Shown piece by piece: positions 36,399 through 63,175 of a stretch of DNA of 64,000 nt. A model generated the notes under the pieces. That model was not told the DNA's origin and searched no databases. It saw nothing but the letters and a program-made list of their open reading frames with translations. How positions within the stretch are numbered: the first letter of the stretch is position 1; every line of letters begins with the position of its first letter. The stretch is taken from the IMG/VR virus record IMGVR_UViG_3300042878_001826, positions 62,001 to 126,000 of that record. The stretch is one strand, 5' to 3'. Origin of the DNA: a virus. The position numbers were made by a program, and so were the translations under genes.

Positions 36399-37055
36399 CT
36401 ATTTGTACAACTTTAAACCAGCATCAATTGAAGAAGAAACGTCCATTTCGCAATATTCTTTTATTTCTTCTAGTCTACCAGTATGATAGTATTCGTGTAC
36501 TAATGATCCATCCATTTTAGTTTTAGGACTTGCAACTCCCAACTCATAACACATTTCGTCAAACGAGAAAGCATAAGCAAACTTTTGTTTCCAATCATCA
36601 GCCATATCTACGACTCTCATTTCCCACGGTTTCTTTTCGTAAGGACGAATCATATCAGCAGGTGTGATTTCGTATTTGTGTAGTTTGTGAAGTATCCAGG
36701 GAATGTCAAAGTAGTTTATTCTGAATCCTGATAGATTAAAACTTTTTTGTCCAATCTTTTTTAGTAAGTCGTTAAAACTTTCAACGATATATCTTTCATC
36801 AGTACCATGAAAGCTTCTAATCTGTTTCTGACCGTTACCATCTACGTATCCAAAAGATATACAACAGATTCTACCATAGGTAGACATTATTCCGGATTGG
36901 TCTAAGTAAGAATCTTCAAGTGTAAACTTTTGATCCCAACCCATTCTTTTCCATTTACCTTCAAAAAGGTTTGCACCACGTTCGTCGTGTGCTTTAAAAT
37001 CAGCGAAGCTTTTGTACTCGCCAGTTGTTTCGATATCAAACATAAATAATTCCAT
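36399..37055 (-). CDS. DEDDy 3'-5' exonuclease (PolB-exonuclease-like)
   Basis: 218 aa. 'MFDIETTGEY' holds the first acidic pair (Asp7, Glu9); 'FRINYFDIPWILHKL' the second Asp; 'EIKEYCEMDVSSSIDAG' the Y-x3-D of exo III, defining the DEDDy class. It resembles the stand-alone exonuclease domain of family B polymerases. It degrades single-stranded 3' ends; a role in repair or replication is inferred. A terminator and the Dam gene precede it on the same strand. Confidence 0.8.
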   Translation of the reverse strand: MELFMFDIETTGEYKSFADFKAHDERGANLFEGKWKRMGWDQKFTLEDSYLDQSGIMSTYGRICCISFGYVDGNGQKQIRSFHGTDERYIVESFNDLLKKIGQKSFNLSGFRINYFDIPWILHKLHKYEITPADMIRPYEKKPWEMRVVDMADDWKQKFAYAFSFDEMCYELGVASPKTKMDGSLVHEYYHTGRLEEIKEYCEMDVSSSIDAGLKLYK

Positions 37056-37095: not shown

Positions 37096-37938
37096 TTATG
37101 CTTTTATCATAAGTACTTCTGTTGCAGCTTTGGCTTCAAACCCATCATCTGTTTTCTTTCTTCGACCCGCCGTATATGTTATAGGGAATGTCGTGATAGT
37201 ATAGTTCTCAGATCTTTCATTAATCCATTGAGTACCATCGTCTCTGTTACAAATGAAAACCAACCCTTCCACATTTCTACTAAGGTCAAGTAGTTCTTCA
37301 AACTCTTTGTCTCCCCAACCAGTTCCGTACTTAGTGAAACTATCTCTGTATGGTGGATCGAAGAAAGTGAACTCACTATAAGGACAGTTTTTCCAATCAC
37401 CACAAAGAATCTCTGTGTTTTGTAATAACTTATTCCATTCAAGAATGTTATCGTAATCAAAACAAGTTTCTTTTTGAGTAAGAAGTCCAGAAGGAGTTCC
37501 GAATCTGTTATTAGTGTTTTGATTTATCTGCCAGATTCCGTTGAATCCTGTCTTCATTAAAAAGTAAAGTGCTGCAGACTCTTCTAGTTTAGACCACTTT
37601 TGGAAGTCATAAGCATGTTCTAATCTTATTTCATAGTAAAGTTTCTTTCTGTCTTCTTTAGTCAAAGGAATAAATCTTTTGTCATAACCTTTAAGAATCT
37701 CTATGAAACCCAATGGATCGCTTTTAACTGATTTGTAAATCTCGATGATACCTTCATTGGCATCGTTTATGTAGCATTTTTCGGGTGCGAAGTTTTGCTG
37801 AACATAAATATACATTGCTCCACCACCAAAGAACGGCTCTGAGTAAGTGCTTACTTTTTCTGGCATGTGTGCAAGATAATTCTTAATCATCTTGTTCTTA
37901 CCGCCGGCCCACATAAATAATGGTTTTACTACTTTCAT
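37096..37938 (-). CDS. dam: Dam-type DNA N6-adenine methyltransferase (D12 class)
   Basis: 280 aa, near the usual 260-290. 'PLFMWAGGKNKMIKNYL' is the amino-terminal D12 signature, 'EPFFGGGAMYIYV' the SAM-binding F-x-G-x-G motif, 'DPPY' at 194-197 the catalytic motif IV. It methylates adenine, GATC being the usual D12 target, with other adenine sites also known. It is expressed separately from the EcoRI-like nuclease 0.7 kb upstream, with its own AT-rich promoter region and terminator. Protection against host GATC enzymes, or against its own nuclease, are both possible. Confidence 0.92.
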   Translation of the reverse strand: MKVVKPLFMWAGGKNKMIKNYLAHMPEKVSTYSEPFFGGGAMYIYVQQNFAPEKCYINDANEGIIEIYKSVKSDPLGFIEILKGYDKRFIPLTKEDRKKLYYEIRLEHAYDFQKWSKLEESAALYFLMKTGFNGIWQINQNTNNRFGTPSGLLTQKETCFDYDNILEWNKLLQNTEILCGDWKNCPYSEFTFFDPPYRDSFTKYGTGWGDKEFEELLDLSRNVEGLVFICNRDDGTQWINERSENYTITTFPITYTAGRRKKTDDGFEAKAATEVLMIKA

Positions 37939-37980: not shown

Positions 37981-38005
37981 AAAAGTCCTCTATTTGAGGA
38001 CTTTT
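37981..38005 (-). terminator. Intrinsic terminator after the EcoRI-like cassette
   Basis: AAAAGTCCTC-TATTT-GAGGACTTTT, just after the stop at 38032. Confidence 0.85.
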
Positions 38006-38031
38006 ATTATTAGTGGTTGGTTATTATTATT

Positions 38032-38628
38032 TTAAAATATAAGAGTTGATACATTTTTATAGTGTTTGAGTTGTATTTTTTCCTCGATAGTATTGTTATT
38101 TCTTAGTATATTATCTTTTTGATGTTCTTCTTTAGTTACACCAATAGTAATCCATAACCATAGATTTTCATATAACCAAACTTCTTTCATATATTCAATT
38201 AAGCTTATTGTGGATTCATTATCTAAATATCCTTTTTCGTTGACAATAGTTAATAAATCTTTACCTAATAAAGAAATAGAAGCTTTTTCAAACTCATTAT
38301 GTACATATCTACCAATTCCTACGGCACCTATAAGGTGGTCCCATGTAATATCTTTTGACAAAAGATTTTTTGCAGCACTTGTTCTTATACCAGATTTTAT
38401 ACCAGTAGTACCAGTTCCTATACCATCGTATCCAAAATTTCCTTTGAGCCAAGTATTTGAAACATTGTTATCTGTTTGTCTTATCTGTAATAAAAGATGT
38501 TCTAAAGCCCAACCAAATAGTGTTTTACATTTTTCTTTATTGGTGAATCCAATAAACTCTTTTGTTTGAGACTTTTTCTCCCAAAACAAATCTCTTTTAT
38601 TATTATTAAAACAAGTTATAATATCCAT
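38032..38628 (-). CDS. Hypothetical partner of the EcoRI-like nuclease
   Basis: 198 aa, no recognised family. 'WLKGNFGYDGIGTGTTGIKS' is a Gly-rich loop and 'DHLIGAVGIGRYVHNEFEKA' a helical segment; the C-terminal third is helical. It begins one base after the nuclease stop and shares its promoter and terminator, so the two form one operon. A partner, specificity subunit or immunity role is possible but unproven. Confidence 0.55.
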   Translation of the reverse strand: MDIITCFNNNKRDLFWEKKSQTKEFIGFTNKEKCKTLFGWALEHLLLQIRQTDNNVSNTWLKGNFGYDGIGTGTTGIKSGIRTSAAKNLLSKDITWDHLIGAVGIGRYVHNEFEKASISLLGKDLLTIVNEKGYLDNESTISLIEYMKEVWLYENLWLWITIGVTKEEHQKDNILRNNNTIEEKIQLKHYKNVSTLIF

Positions 38629-38629
38629 T

Positions 38630-39196
38630 TTATTTTACTTTTTCAATCGCCATTAAGATGATTTGTTTCAATGTAGATTTTACATAGTCAAAGTCAAAGT
38701 CAGTTTCAGATAAGAAGATAGAAAAGTTATCCATTCCGTAACCTTCGTTTGCTTTTTCTCTGATTGTGTTGTACTCACCTTCAACTGCGATGTGTAATGT
38801 GTTCCAGATTGGTCCGTTTACTGCAGTTCCTTTACCCGTACCAAAAGTTACATAAAGAATATCTTTGTTACAAGCTCTTGCGATGAATGGGTTTTTATAC
38901 CATCTTTCGATTGCGTTTCCACGCTCACCTTGTTTTTTAGCTTCTGATGCAAAGATTGGTAGGCCGTTGAAAAGCCAAATACCACCATCTGGTGCACAAG
39001 CACCAACACCACCACAGATTTGATCTTTTCTTAATTTTGCTTGGTATGTTAAACCTGGAATAGTTGCTTTCAATTCTTCGAACAACTCTTTGTTTGCAGT
39101 CTTAACTTGTTTGTCGATAAGTTTAGACTCTACAGAGCTTGCTACTGTACCTGGTTGTATTCCGCCTTTTTTCTTTGCTGTTGCTATTTCTGTCAT
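38630..39196 (-). CDS. EcoRI-family restriction endonuclease (compact form)
   Basis: 188 aa. 'APDGGIWLFNGLPIFASEAK' gives the PD...ExK active site (Asp70, Glu85, Lys87), and is followed by 'KQGERGNAIERWYKNPFIAR'. In EcoRI the same order is PDGGI...VAEAKHQG...AGNAIERSHKN, where the G-N-A-I-E-R stretch contacts GAATTC. About 20 residues between EAK-QG and GNAIER are deleted here, and the protein is about 90 residues shorter than EcoRI. It starts from a TATATTTG promoter and is followed by one gene and a terminator. No adjoining dedicated methylase; Dam is 0.7 kb away. Confidence 0.8.
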   Translation of the reverse strand: MTEIATAKKKGGIQPGTVASSVESKLIDKQVKTANKELFEELKATIPGLTYQAKLRKDQICGGVGACAPDGGIWLFNGLPIFASEAKKQGERGNAIERWYKNPFIARACNKDILYVTFGTGKGTAVNGPIWNTLHIAVEGEYNTIREKANEGYGMDNFSIFLSETDFDFDYVKSTLKQIILMAIEKVK

Positions 39197-39216
39197 AGTT
39201 GTCGTCGTTTGTTTTA

Positions 39217-39224
39217 CAAATATA
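39217..39224 (-). promoter_or_regulatory. Bacteroidota-type -7 box TATATTTG
   Basis: Minus-strand TATATTTG, 20 bases before the ATG of the EcoRI-like gene at 39196. Confidence 0.65.
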
Positions 39225-39265: not shown

Positions 39266-39970
39266 TTATTTATTTTTTATCAATTTACATTTACCATATC
39301 GTGGATTCTTACTTAGCATTTCTGCAAATAGTTCAAACTCTAATTCGATTGTAGGTATATTTATGAATAGTTCTGTATCTACCTTTATCTCATTTTTCTT
39401 ACATAGTCTAAAATCTTCAAAAAACTTATGTAATACTCTTTCGATTATAGAATAGTCTTCACATTCTATTCTCATAATCTCTTCTAAATTAAAAACACCA
39501 TATCTATGATCTTTTGATAGTTCTGATAGTCGCTGAGTGATGTTTTTAGTTTTTCCGACTTTATAAGTATCGTTGAAAGATTTACTTTTTAAAAGATATA
39601 CAATACCAAAAGTATCGACATTTTCTTCTATATCAATATTTTCTATAACAACGTCAATATTTTCTTCTTCTTCTTTGTTACTCTCTAAGTAGAATTTCTT
39701 ACCAAGTTCCGTTATATTATGTTTATTTAACGAACCTTTTTCTTTTGAGGTTTCAACAAGTGTTGGTATTGATATAATTCCTCTACCCATCTCTGCGTAG
39801 ATTTGTTGTCTTAATTCTTTTTCTGTTTTTTCACTACCTTTTGATATATAATAAACTCTCTTTTCATCAACCTTTTCAGTACATTCATCGTAGAATTTAT
39901 CTACTATTTCACTTGTTGATAATGTTCCGTTTAAAAATAACGATTTTATTATAAAGTCTTTTTTAGTCAT
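39266..39970 (-). CDS. GIY-YIG / T5orf172-type nuclease-domain protein with winged-helix N-terminus
   Basis: 234 aa. Residues 1-90 look like a winged helix ('KDFIIKSLFLNGTLSTSEIV'), followed by an acidic linker. Then 'GIVYLLKSKSFNDTYKVGKT' begins a GIY-YIG fold (G-x-V-Y-L-L, Y-K-V-G-x-T, R-L-x-x-L), with 'IIERVLHKFFEDFR' providing the E-x-x-L-H helix of the T5orf172/MUG113 subclass. Its DNA-cutting ability depends on residues not fully recognised. Could be a homing-type or restriction nuclease. Confidence 0.7.
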   Translation of the reverse strand: MTKKDFIIKSLFLNGTLSTSEIVDKFYDECTEKVDEKRVYYISKGSEKTEKELRQQIYAEMGRGIISIPTLVETSKEKGSLNKHNITELGKKFYLESNKEEEENIDVVIENIDIEENVDTFGIVYLLKSKSFNDTYKVGKTKNITQRLSELSKDHRYGVFNLEEIMRIECEDYSIIERVLHKFFEDFRLCKKNEIKVDTELFINIPTIELEFELFAEMLSKNPRYGKCKLIKNK

Positions 39971-61465: not shown

Positions 61466-63175
61466 ATGAGATATCTAAAACTATACGAAGCGTTTTCATC
61501 TAATACGCTTTCAAAGCTTTATAAGCATCTAAAGAAAAAGAATGCTAGTAATAAAAGTCTTAATCAATTCAAAGAAGACATGGAAGTAATCGCAAAGTCT
61601 TTTGATATTCCTATGGACAAAATATCAGACGAAGATGTTTCTTATATTTCTAGAAGAAAGGCTCTTCCGCTTAGATCGGAAGCAAAGAATGATTCTGGAA
61701 TATGGGCCATAAAATTTTGGTTTGATAAAGACGGAGAATATATCGGTACTTCAGGAACAGGAAACGCAAAGTTTGCTACTTCAAATGTGCCAAGTACTAG
61801 TAGTTATCACAGTAAACCATATTCAAAAGCACAATGGGATAAGATTAAAAAATCAATGACTTTTGGCTTTCCAAAAACTGGGTATTTAATACCTGTACTC
61901 CATGATGAATATGATCAGTTAAAAGATGGTGATGAGGTTATAGTATGTCTTTGTGATGAGGAAGAATATGATGACTATCCAGATTCTAGAGTAGATAGGT
62001 TAGTATGTGGAAAGATATTTGTGGATGGAAACGTATATGTCATACATGACAACGATATCGCGGAAGGATCGGAACCAAGTAATACTCCATCAGAAGAATA
62101 TCCGGACATAGAATGGGGTGAGTATTCCTGGAGTATTGTGAGTATCAATGGAGGTGTAGGTTCCGATCATTTCAACCTTCATAAAGTCATAAAGTCCGAT
62201 ACTCCAATATCTTACTATAGTGAAAAAGTTGATAATGAAGAAGGTAATAATCCTTTTGAATTCAACCTTTCTTTAGAAGAGATAGAAGATAATAAGTTGA
62301 TTCTTTCTGACTGGTCAGGAAACATTGATGAAAAGAATAAAATAGAAAAAGAGGCAGACTTTGCAGTTATTTTATACGTCGATGGTATTCTAAGTAGAGG
62401 ATTGAAAAGTAAATCCGCTACTTCCGAAGAAAGAAAAGAAACTAGAAAAGGAGCAATCGCTTTGATGTCCGACGAAGACTTCAAGCAAGCAAACATAGAG
62501 AAATATCTCAACCAGTTAGTTGAGAAGATTGGAATCACTCCAGAATCAGTGGAGCTTAAGAATCTACAGAAGGTCGCAGCGACTATAATGTCTACTGGAA
62601 TATCAGACTCATATGCACTTTTTTCAATTATGAGTCGAGATTATAGGGCTATAGATAATTTGGCATATCAACTAAAGAGATTGATATCAAGTGTTTCTCT
62701 ACAAAATCCAGAAATGATTAAATTTGTCTACAACGAATTTGCAGGTGATTATAGAAGAACTAAAAAAAATGCGAGTAATGCATATAAATCAAAAAAAGCT
62801 TCAATGGATATGTTAAAAGAAAGAGAATATCTAAAACCTTTATATGATTCTATACTCAGAATAAGTAATAAAATATCCAAAGGAATAGTATCTAAAGAGA
62901 TTACTAGAGGAGAAGATTTAAAAAAGATATTATTCAAACTTGAAAGTATTGAATCAATGATGAGAGATGATGATTTTGAGCTTTCTCGACAGTTCAGAGA
63001 CTTCTCGGAAAATGTAAGATATGGAGTGAGTGATTCCGACATGGTTATAAGAAGACTAGAAAATATGGATGGAGACTATTCTACTTTAACAAACGACAAT
63101 AAGACGACTCTTTTAGAAATGGATCTGAAAAAACTTAAAGAAATAGAATCTTATGTAGATGATATAATGAAATAA
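61466..63175 (+). CDS. Large N-terminally tagged protein
   Basis: 569 aa. Tag 'MRYLKLYEAFSS': L-Y-E then Ala is a textbook prohead-protease site (L-x-E). Middle has beta-rich domain 'IWAIKFWFDKDGEYIGTSGT' and 'KTGYLIPVLHDEYDQLKDGD', and the C-terminal 300 residues are helical ('LSRQFRDFSENVRYGVSDSD', 'LLEMDLKKLKEIESYVDDIM'). No enzyme family recognised. Ends at a bidirectional terminator. Confidence 0.65.
   Translation: MRYLKLYEAFSSNTLSKLYKHLKKKNASNKSLNQFKEDMEVIAKSFDIPMDKISDEDVSYISRRKALPLRSEAKNDSGIWAIKFWFDKDGEYIGTSGTGNAKFATSNVPSTSSYHSKPYSKAQWDKIKKSMTFGFPKTGYLIPVLHDEYDQLKDGDEVIVCLCDEEEYDDYPDSRVDRLVCGKIFVDGNVYVIHDNDIAEGSEPSNTPSEEYPDIEWGEYSWSIVSINGGVGSDHFNLHKVIKSDTPISYYSEKVDNEEGNNPFEFNLSLEEIEDNKLILSDWSGNIDEKNKIEKEADFAVILYVDGILSRGLKSKSATSEERKETRKGAIALMSDEDFKQANIEKYLNQLVEKIGITPESVELKNLQKVAATIMSTGISDSYALFSIMSRDYRAIDNLAYQLKRLISSVSLQNPEMIKFVYNEFAGDYRRTKKNASNAYKSKKASMDMLKEREYLKPLYDSILRISNKISKGIVSKEITRGEDLKKILFKLESIESMMRDDDFELSRQFRDFSENVRYGVSDSDMVIRRLENMDGDYSTLTNDNKTTLLEMDLKKLKEIESYVDDIMK

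Follow-up and report, generated by a model that had tools for sequence, protein, structure and literature searches.

A phage-borne EcoRI-fold nuclease, its Dam-type methyltransferase partner and AATT as the most likely site

Introduction

Type II restriction is usually viewed as a bacterial defence. What, then, does an EcoRI-like endonuclease do in a phage: which sequence would it cut, in whose DNA, and how would its carrier survive it? These questions are raised by a locus on the minus strand of a 64,000-nucleotide stretch (hereafter the window), positions 62,001 to 126,000 of the 150,251-base virus record IMGVR_UViG_3300042878_001826 of IMG/VR (G000 below). A preliminary description of the window proposed a phage-borne EcoRI-family endonuclease in a self-contained two-gene cassette with a 198-aa gene, and offered as possible uses the destruction of host DNA, attack on co-infecting phages, or a complete restriction–modification (R-M) system with the 198-aa protein as partner. 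In this study, we examine the nuclease, its neighbours and the genomes that carry it.

Results

Layout of the locus

On the minus strand, the order is T5orf172/MUG113 gene, TATATTTG, nuclease, 198-aa gene, hairpin and Dam-type methyltransferase. The nuclease gene (38630-39196, minus strand; 188 aa; phrog_2400), a putative AATT-specific restriction enzyme delimited by open reading frame, conservation, profile and model, is followed, one base past its stop codon as previously described, by the start of the 198-aa orphan gene taken from the list of open reading frames (38032-38628, minus strand). The terminator said to close this cassette corresponds to a terminator-like hairpin at 38005-37981 (minus strand), with 10 pairs and a folding energy of -13 kcal/mol (z -3.7; equally stable in 2 of 200 shuffles). 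Beyond it lies the Dam-type (D12) adenine methyltransferase (37096-37938, minus strand; 280 aa), a putative protecting partner, at a measured distance of 691 bases from the nuclease, close to the 0.7 kb first given. The hairpin between the 198-aa gene and this methyltransferase supports the earlier suggestion of separate transcription, to the extent that Dam may be a separate unit.

A promoter had also been placed before the nuclease. The motif itself, TATATTTG, is present at 39217-39224 (minus strand) and presumably resembles the Bacteroidota -7 motif; its word count, 13 in the window against 6.2 expected with 3 of 100 shuffles reaching 13, backs a promoter role weakly. Directly upstream of the nuclease, a 234-aa T5orf172/MUG113 protein (39266-39970, minus strand; a weak GIY-YIG domain match) has no relative in 51 RecA-matched huge-phage stretches, and it also matches the candidate defence family PDC-S57 (2.5e-10). 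Just downstream of Dam, a 218-aa protein (36399-37055, minus strand), which on inspection looks like a 3'-5' exonuclease, is present in 3 of the 51 RecA-matched stretches. By its RecA-like protein, which shares 84% identity with the counterpart in an uncultured phage of 642 kb (Prevotella Lak phages come next, at 33%), the record is probably a fragment of a huge phage, whose host was perhaps a member of the Bacteroidota.

Kinship of the nuclease with EcoRI

Three motifs stand in the EcoRI order, as had been read from the letters of the window: PDGGI with the catalytic Asp70 (residues 69-73; 38978-38992, minus strand), EAKKQG with the catalytic Glu85 and Lys87 (residues 85-90; 38927-38944, minus strand) and GNAIER (residues 93-98; 38903-38920, minus strand). 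They begin at residues 69, 85 and 93, against 90, 111 and 140 in the plasmid translation of EcoRI. The spacing from Asp to Glu is 15 residues (20 in EcoRI) and that from Glu to GNAIER is 8 (29 in EcoRI), so that the deletion of about 20 residues first noted between the catalytic and recognition segments measures 21. Residues matching EcoRI Asp91, Glu111, Lys113, Asn141, Ala142, Glu144 and Arg145 (in the window, D70, E85, K87, N94, A95, E97 and R98) are invariant in all 36 aligned sequences, the window's included, as are P69, Q89 and G93, and Ile96 is kept in at least 90% of the rows. In EcoRI, Arg145, Asn141 and Ala142 contact the central A-T pairs (PMC4081073). GNAIER, the counterpart of this AATT-core-contacting segment, is kept in the window nuclease, and the 21 residues ahead of it are absent.

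The preliminary description suggested comparing a predicted structure with EcoRI. The model obtained has a pLDDT of 88.7, and VIA-align, applied among Foldseek's top 1000, placed EcoRI in its five best rows (Z 15.4-16.2, 158-160 residues, rmsd 2.5-2.6), followed by a row at Z 9.1 and with MunI at Z 7.3; Foldseek alone gave no match at E < 0.001. A profile of the nuclease compared with a profile of five EcoRI-family proteins gave a probability of 97.7 (E 2e-12 for that one comparison). Direct BLAST against EcoRI was weak (E 0.002), and a PDB sequence search with the single protein or its profile did not find EcoRI. Kinship with EcoRI, based on the profile comparison and on VIA-align of the predicted model, bears out the family assignment made earlier and confirms 38630-39196 (minus strand) as encoding a nuclease with a predicted EcoRI fold. 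In the family libraries, PHROG 2400 (function unknown) matches the nuclease at 1.8e-41, and no family was found in Pfam at E up to 10 or in NCBIfam at E up to 1.

Relatives occur in 65 Synechococcus phage records (42-47% identity among the matches listed) and in at least 80 distinct IMG/VR contigs, counted after 16 second fetches were dropped (one relative search gave 80 of 84 confirmed), which agrees with its description as phage-borne; bacterial and archaeal genomes yielded no relative in two pattern scans. Because of this spread and the profile probability, the nuclease is more than a chance resemblance. One member is already known under the name, gp11 of S-CREM2 having been annotated 'restriction endonuclease EcoRI' by its depositors (GenBank OR473000). 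In the same phage (L282), gp11 adjoins a gene whose annotation is that of a Cas9-type virion protein (gp12) and lies near gp6, a virion SAM hydrolase that could counter SAM-dependent methylation. On a Paracoccus marcusii plasmid (L101:1104-2974), a 238-aa EcoRI-family enzyme sits beside a gene annotated as a DNA adenine methylase, and its alignment with the phage nuclease is better than that of EcoRI (E 1e-5 versus 0.002).

The partner gene

In 62 of the 80 viral contigs, a D12 methyltransferase lies next to the nuclease or no farther than 1.44 kb from it, and these contigs hold the combination by which a type II R-M system is recognised, a nuclease gene with a linked methyltransferase gene. 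The D12 match begins no more than 39 bases from the end of the nuclease in 45 contigs and 929-1439 bases downstream in 15, lies directly upstream in one (L047), and in another (L089:1887-3299) is fused in frame to the nuclease as a single 470-aa open reading frame. For this fusion, a stop codon lost through sequencing error is a possible alternative. The other 18 contigs show no D12 gene within the fetched stretch; one of them (L046) stops inside the nuclease, and the record of another (L061, G001) has a D12 gene about 18 kb off, 55% identical to that of the window. A further one (L094:4661-5703) carries an MT-A70 methyltransferase overlapping the nuclease end, possibly a partner swap, and has an AATT ratio of 0.76 in 6.8 kb. 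The nuclease is found in 65 records of the phage collection and a close D12 enzyme in 64, a comparison of totals and not of accession against accession. By host label S-CREM2 stands apart, with a Dam (gp8) that belongs to a different D12 type and two genes lying between it and the nuclease. Across 27 of the 36 aligned sequences, distances between nucleases track those between D12 enzymes (Mantel r 0.54, reached in 0 of 2000 permutations), a correlation that could also come from common descent of the phages.

For the 198-aa gene, no relative was found in family libraries, the phage collection, one viral-contig pattern scan or 51 huge-phage stretches, and its protein model is uninformative (pLDDT 34). 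Of two S-RIM2 records, HQ317291 has between nuclease and Dam a 351-aa gene that encodes a protein other than the window's, while KX349259 has no middle gene and its nuclease and Dam overlap by 4 bases, as they do in S-BM1; since the S-RIM2 records differ in this way, the slot is variable. A gap of 929-1439 bases, as in 15 of the IMG/VR contigs, is wide enough for a gene, and in at least nine of those 15 it is occupied by a relative of the S-RIM2 351-aa gene. The 351-aa gene itself (L002:6630-7685) has a weak match to DUF6551 (0.00027, below cut-off). Probably, then, the 198-aa gene is an optional occupant of the slot between nuclease and Dam. Were it instead the functional partner of the nuclease, with Dam unrelated, the shared strand, the one-base spacing and the flanking promoter-like motif and terminator would be well explained; we give this very little credence, as relatives of the 198-aa gene are lacking in the places searched whereas D12 is the constant neighbour, and as the S-RIM2 middle gene is a different one or missing. 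The conserved partner is the D12 methyltransferase and not the 198-aa gene, and the notion of a self-contained two-gene cassette gives way to a pair seen in most contigs and once as a fusion.

The window's methyltransferase matches PF02086 (2e-28) and TIGR00571 (144 bits, cut-off 114.85), and its nearest PDB entry is the DpnII methylase. In E. coli Dam, Lys9 and Arg124 contact base pairs 1 and 4 of GATC (PMC10073500, in excerpt). Among 63 sequences, near-duplicates included, the place of Lys9 could be read in 62 (Ile in 33, Met in 27, Thr in one, Lys in one) and that of Arg124 in 58, all with Gln; the window enzyme has Met9 and Gln137. The Lys9 and Arg124 combination of Dam (GATC) is not what the D12 partners carry, and these residues would argue, as supporting evidence, against GATC as their site. 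They do not single out AATT, because Gln stands in the Arg124 position of other D12 enzymes as well, among them the Dam of S-CREM2 and one whose gene, on a Citrobacter plasmid, has no such nuclease annotated in its vicinity.

AATT is depleted in carriers

In around half of the type II systems studied, the prokaryotic carrier avoids the system's recognition site (PMC4687349, in excerpt), and we therefore compared the words that separate carriers from non-carriers. As controls we took nuclease-less loci, located by way of the helicase gene that S-RIM2 carries after Dam and drawn from 80 of 128 relatives; four loci with the nuclease, on contigs already counted as carriers, were dropped. Loci of at least 7 kb were used, that is 66 of 76 controls and 46 of 80 carriers (10 and 34 shorter ones left out), 'nuclease-less' applying to the fetched stretch of up to 21 kb. 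The median observed/expected ratio of AATT was 0.39 in the 46 carrier loci and 0.84 in the 66 nuclease-less loci (p 6e-15). With near-duplicates removed, the values were 0.40 (39 carriers) and 0.85 (54 controls), placing AATT first of 136 words; it was also first among palindromes under a first-order null, and without the L040-L042 group the carriers still stood at 0.41 (p 7e-12). CGCG differed in the same direction, more weakly (0.62 versus 0.87, p 0.005), and CCGG (0.33 versus 0.00) and AGCT (0.32 versus 0.05) in the opposite one. GATC stood at 0.74 in carriers and 0.81 in controls (p 0.25; GC-matched 0.72 versus 0.81, p 0.04).

The window's phage belongs to another group, where it is the one carrier. 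Its AATT ratio of 0.58 lies below those of all 49 nuclease-less relatives (0.65-1.09, median 0.96), which remained from 51 RecA-matched relatives after two under 10 kb were dropped; of the 16 palindromes, AATT alone places G000 under every relative compared. The depletion holds with every flank, at 0.34-0.72 in G000 and 0.00-0.56 in 60 of the 175 kb of S-RIM2. Some carriers are little depleted (L048 0.95, L077 0.86, L037 0.80, L087 0.80, L088 0.78, and L076 0.84 in 5.7 kb), and S-CREM2 has 0.66 in 16 kb. Samples of 50-60 kb gave 0.66 (G010), 0.63 (G011), 0.27 (S-RIM2), 0.27 (G009) and 0.20 (G001) for carriers, and 0.61 (ACG-2014f), 0.78 (S-H34) and 0.97 (syn9) for nuclease-less controls, the carriers G010 and G011 being no different from the control ACG-2014f.

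On the genomic evidence, the site of the nuclease is most likely AATT and not GAATTC. The preliminary description had located GAATTC at more than ten places in the window (we count 20, fewer than the 33.7 expected) and reasoned that the DNA of a phage with a GAATTC-cutting nuclease must be protected. Its argument for self-protection stands, as the window contains 274 AATT and the phage would therefore need a methyltransferase; what changes is the site. GAATTC was dropped as a candidate, given that the depletion covers all AATT flanks and that the contigs G002-G004, described below, lack AATT in every context. GATC was dropped as a shared site on the comparison above and because it is common in G002-G004.

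Contigs without AATT

Three contigs, each with an intact nuclease gene, contain no AATT at all: G002 (111,864 bases, 340 expected), G003 (89,959 bases, 282 expected) and G004 (73,883 bases, 233 expected). Their GATC counts are 673, 516 and 426. Identity is 99.99% between G002 and G003 and, over the aligned part, 86.7% between G004 and G002; they count as one or two lineages. No D12, N6_N4, PF05869 or MT-A70 methyltransferase was found in these fragments, although one may lie off contig. AATT ratios are 0.66-0.85 in the nine nuclease-less relatives closest to them (70.5-74.4% identity in the helicase), and none of the 66 nuclease-less loci lies under 0.1. The nuclease pair L040/L042 has a dN/dS of 0.09 (one pair). 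It seems that this lineage has lost the methyltransferase and removed every AATT instead. G005, a 62-kb fragment with the nuclease and no detected adenine methyltransferase, has kept AATT at 0.66; by eye, its nuclease resembles that of G001, whose D12 gene is the distant one mentioned above.

CCGG is likewise absent from G002-G005, a loss that has another cause, because its median is 0.00 in the nuclease-less controls too; this loss and the rarity of AGCT in nuclease-less cyanophage loci (0.05) are probably due to host restriction. The same could be asked of AATT, with hosts restricting it and the nuclease recognising another site or being inactive: CCGG demonstrates that a word can be purged without the nuclease, and some carriers keep most of their AATT. 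We consider this improbable, however, since AATT loss tracks the nuclease in two distant groups, the T4-like cyanophages and the huge-phage group (with its one carrier), since none of the 66 nuclease-less loci has a ratio under 0.1, and since the AATT-core segment of EcoRI is kept in the nuclease.

Discussion

Our reading of this locus, to which we assign a probability of roughly 0.8, is that the nuclease and its D12 partner are a phage-borne, AATT-specific type II R-M pair directed at host or rival DNA, from which the phage is safe by methylation or by purging the site. The 188-aa EcoRI-fold PD-(D/E)xK nuclease, presumably a homodimer like EcoRI, would cut AATT through the retained core contacts, having lost the segment ahead of them. 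The Dam-type enzyme would methylate the adenine in AATT and so protect the phage's own DNA, and during infection the nuclease would cut unmodified DNA, that is the host chromosome and also any co-infecting phage. Where the methyltransferase is seemingly missing, removal of every AATT would take its place. An AATT-cutting enzyme that the phage must survive would account for the presence of a methyltransferase, for the low AATT ratios of carriers and for the total disappearance of AATT where no methyltransferase was detected. Counting against such a pair are the little-depleted carriers, the ratio of 0.66 in G005, the fragmentary state of G002-G004, the purging of CCGG and the 18 of 80 contigs without D12. 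Of the uses first suggested, a complete R-M system attacking other DNA fits best, with D12 in the place proposed for the 198-aa protein.

Selection seems to maintain the nuclease even in phages with no AATT of their own, and its use is therefore probably against other DNA. A patchy unit of linked nuclease and methyltransferase genes also recalls a selfish addiction module, kept since its loss kills the carrier. That origin appears most unlikely to us: in G002-G004 the nuclease, with no AATT and no detected adenine methyltransferase beside it, seems to be under purifying selection (judged on one pair) and useful alone, and a lytic phage would presumably gain little from addiction.

Whose DNA is cut bears on a variant of the R-M pair that does not exclude it, in which the main role is the exclusion of co-infecting phages by cutting their unmethylated AATT and host cutting is secondary. 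Nuclease-less T4-like cyanophages, which keep AATT near expectation (medians 0.84-0.85), would be cut, and the marseillevirus GATC system, proposed as a weapon against competitors, spares host DNA (PMC7253447, in excerpt). Against this, host DNA that is unmethylated would be expected to suffer as well unless the nuclease acts late or is kept away, and the present results fit host and competitor DNA alike; we regard the variant as possible, though somewhat doubtful as the main role.

Returning to the AATT-specific pair itself, we incline slightly to the view that one phage lineage (G002-G004) has an AATT-cutting enzyme without any methyltransferase, with which it would cut host or rival DNA while immune through its AATT-purged genome. 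If true, restriction would be a stand-alone weapon there, with the mark of self and non-self written in the sequence and methylation serving as the alternative mark in sister phages. The AATT-free contigs would show, as a natural experiment, how a genome adjusts to a nuclease of its own. More broadly, phages as far apart as T4-like cyanophages and a huge-phage relative appear to use restriction offensively, and the site of a putative phage R-M pair can be read from the genomes of its carriers. The cultured carriers S-BM1 and S-RIM2 make cleavage and methylation testable, and those cultured on Synechococcus WH7803 open the disposal of host or rival DNA to direct test.

Among known systems, EcoRI (type IIP, GAATTC) with M.EcoRI shares the fold, the catalytic residues, the GNAIER segment and an adenine methyltransferase partner with the phage pair. 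It differs in length (277 aa versus 188 aa, the phage nuclease being without 21 residues before GNAIER), in being plasmid-borne and not phage-borne, in its site (GAATTC against, apparently, AATT) and in its EcoRI-type methyltransferase, where the phage partner is D12. Such a partner is not a strict feature of the family, because of four EcoRI-family plasmids two carry an 'adenine-specific methyltransferase EcoRI family' and the two others a 'DNA methyltransferase' and a 'DNA adenine methylase'. MunI, which recognises CAATTG, is among the structural matches of the phage nuclease; MluCI, Tsp509I and Sse9I, the last two recognising AATT, are likened to it by site or description, not by sequence, and all four are cellular enzymes. 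EcoRI, MunI and MluCI have been named together as a possible case of mosaicism (PMC4081073, in excerpt). S-CREM2 gp11 differs in its treatment, neither pairing nor site being discussed in the excerpted text of PMC10665884, and among the matches listed, titles and abstract openings of open-licence literature give no description of a nuclease–D12 pairing, a phage AATT system or purged genomes. Chlorovirus CviAI (GATC) and CviAII (CATG) also combine a virus-encoded restriction enzyme for a 4-base site with an m6A methyltransferase; they belong to algal viruses and have other sites, and the excerpt of PMC7248222 mentions no methyltransferase-less, site-purged relative. The R-M systems of chloroviruses are described as directed at host DNA, and the marseillevirus GATC system, from an amoebal virus and with another site, resembles ours as a virus-encoded pair with a proposed role against competitors (both PMC7253447, in excerpt).
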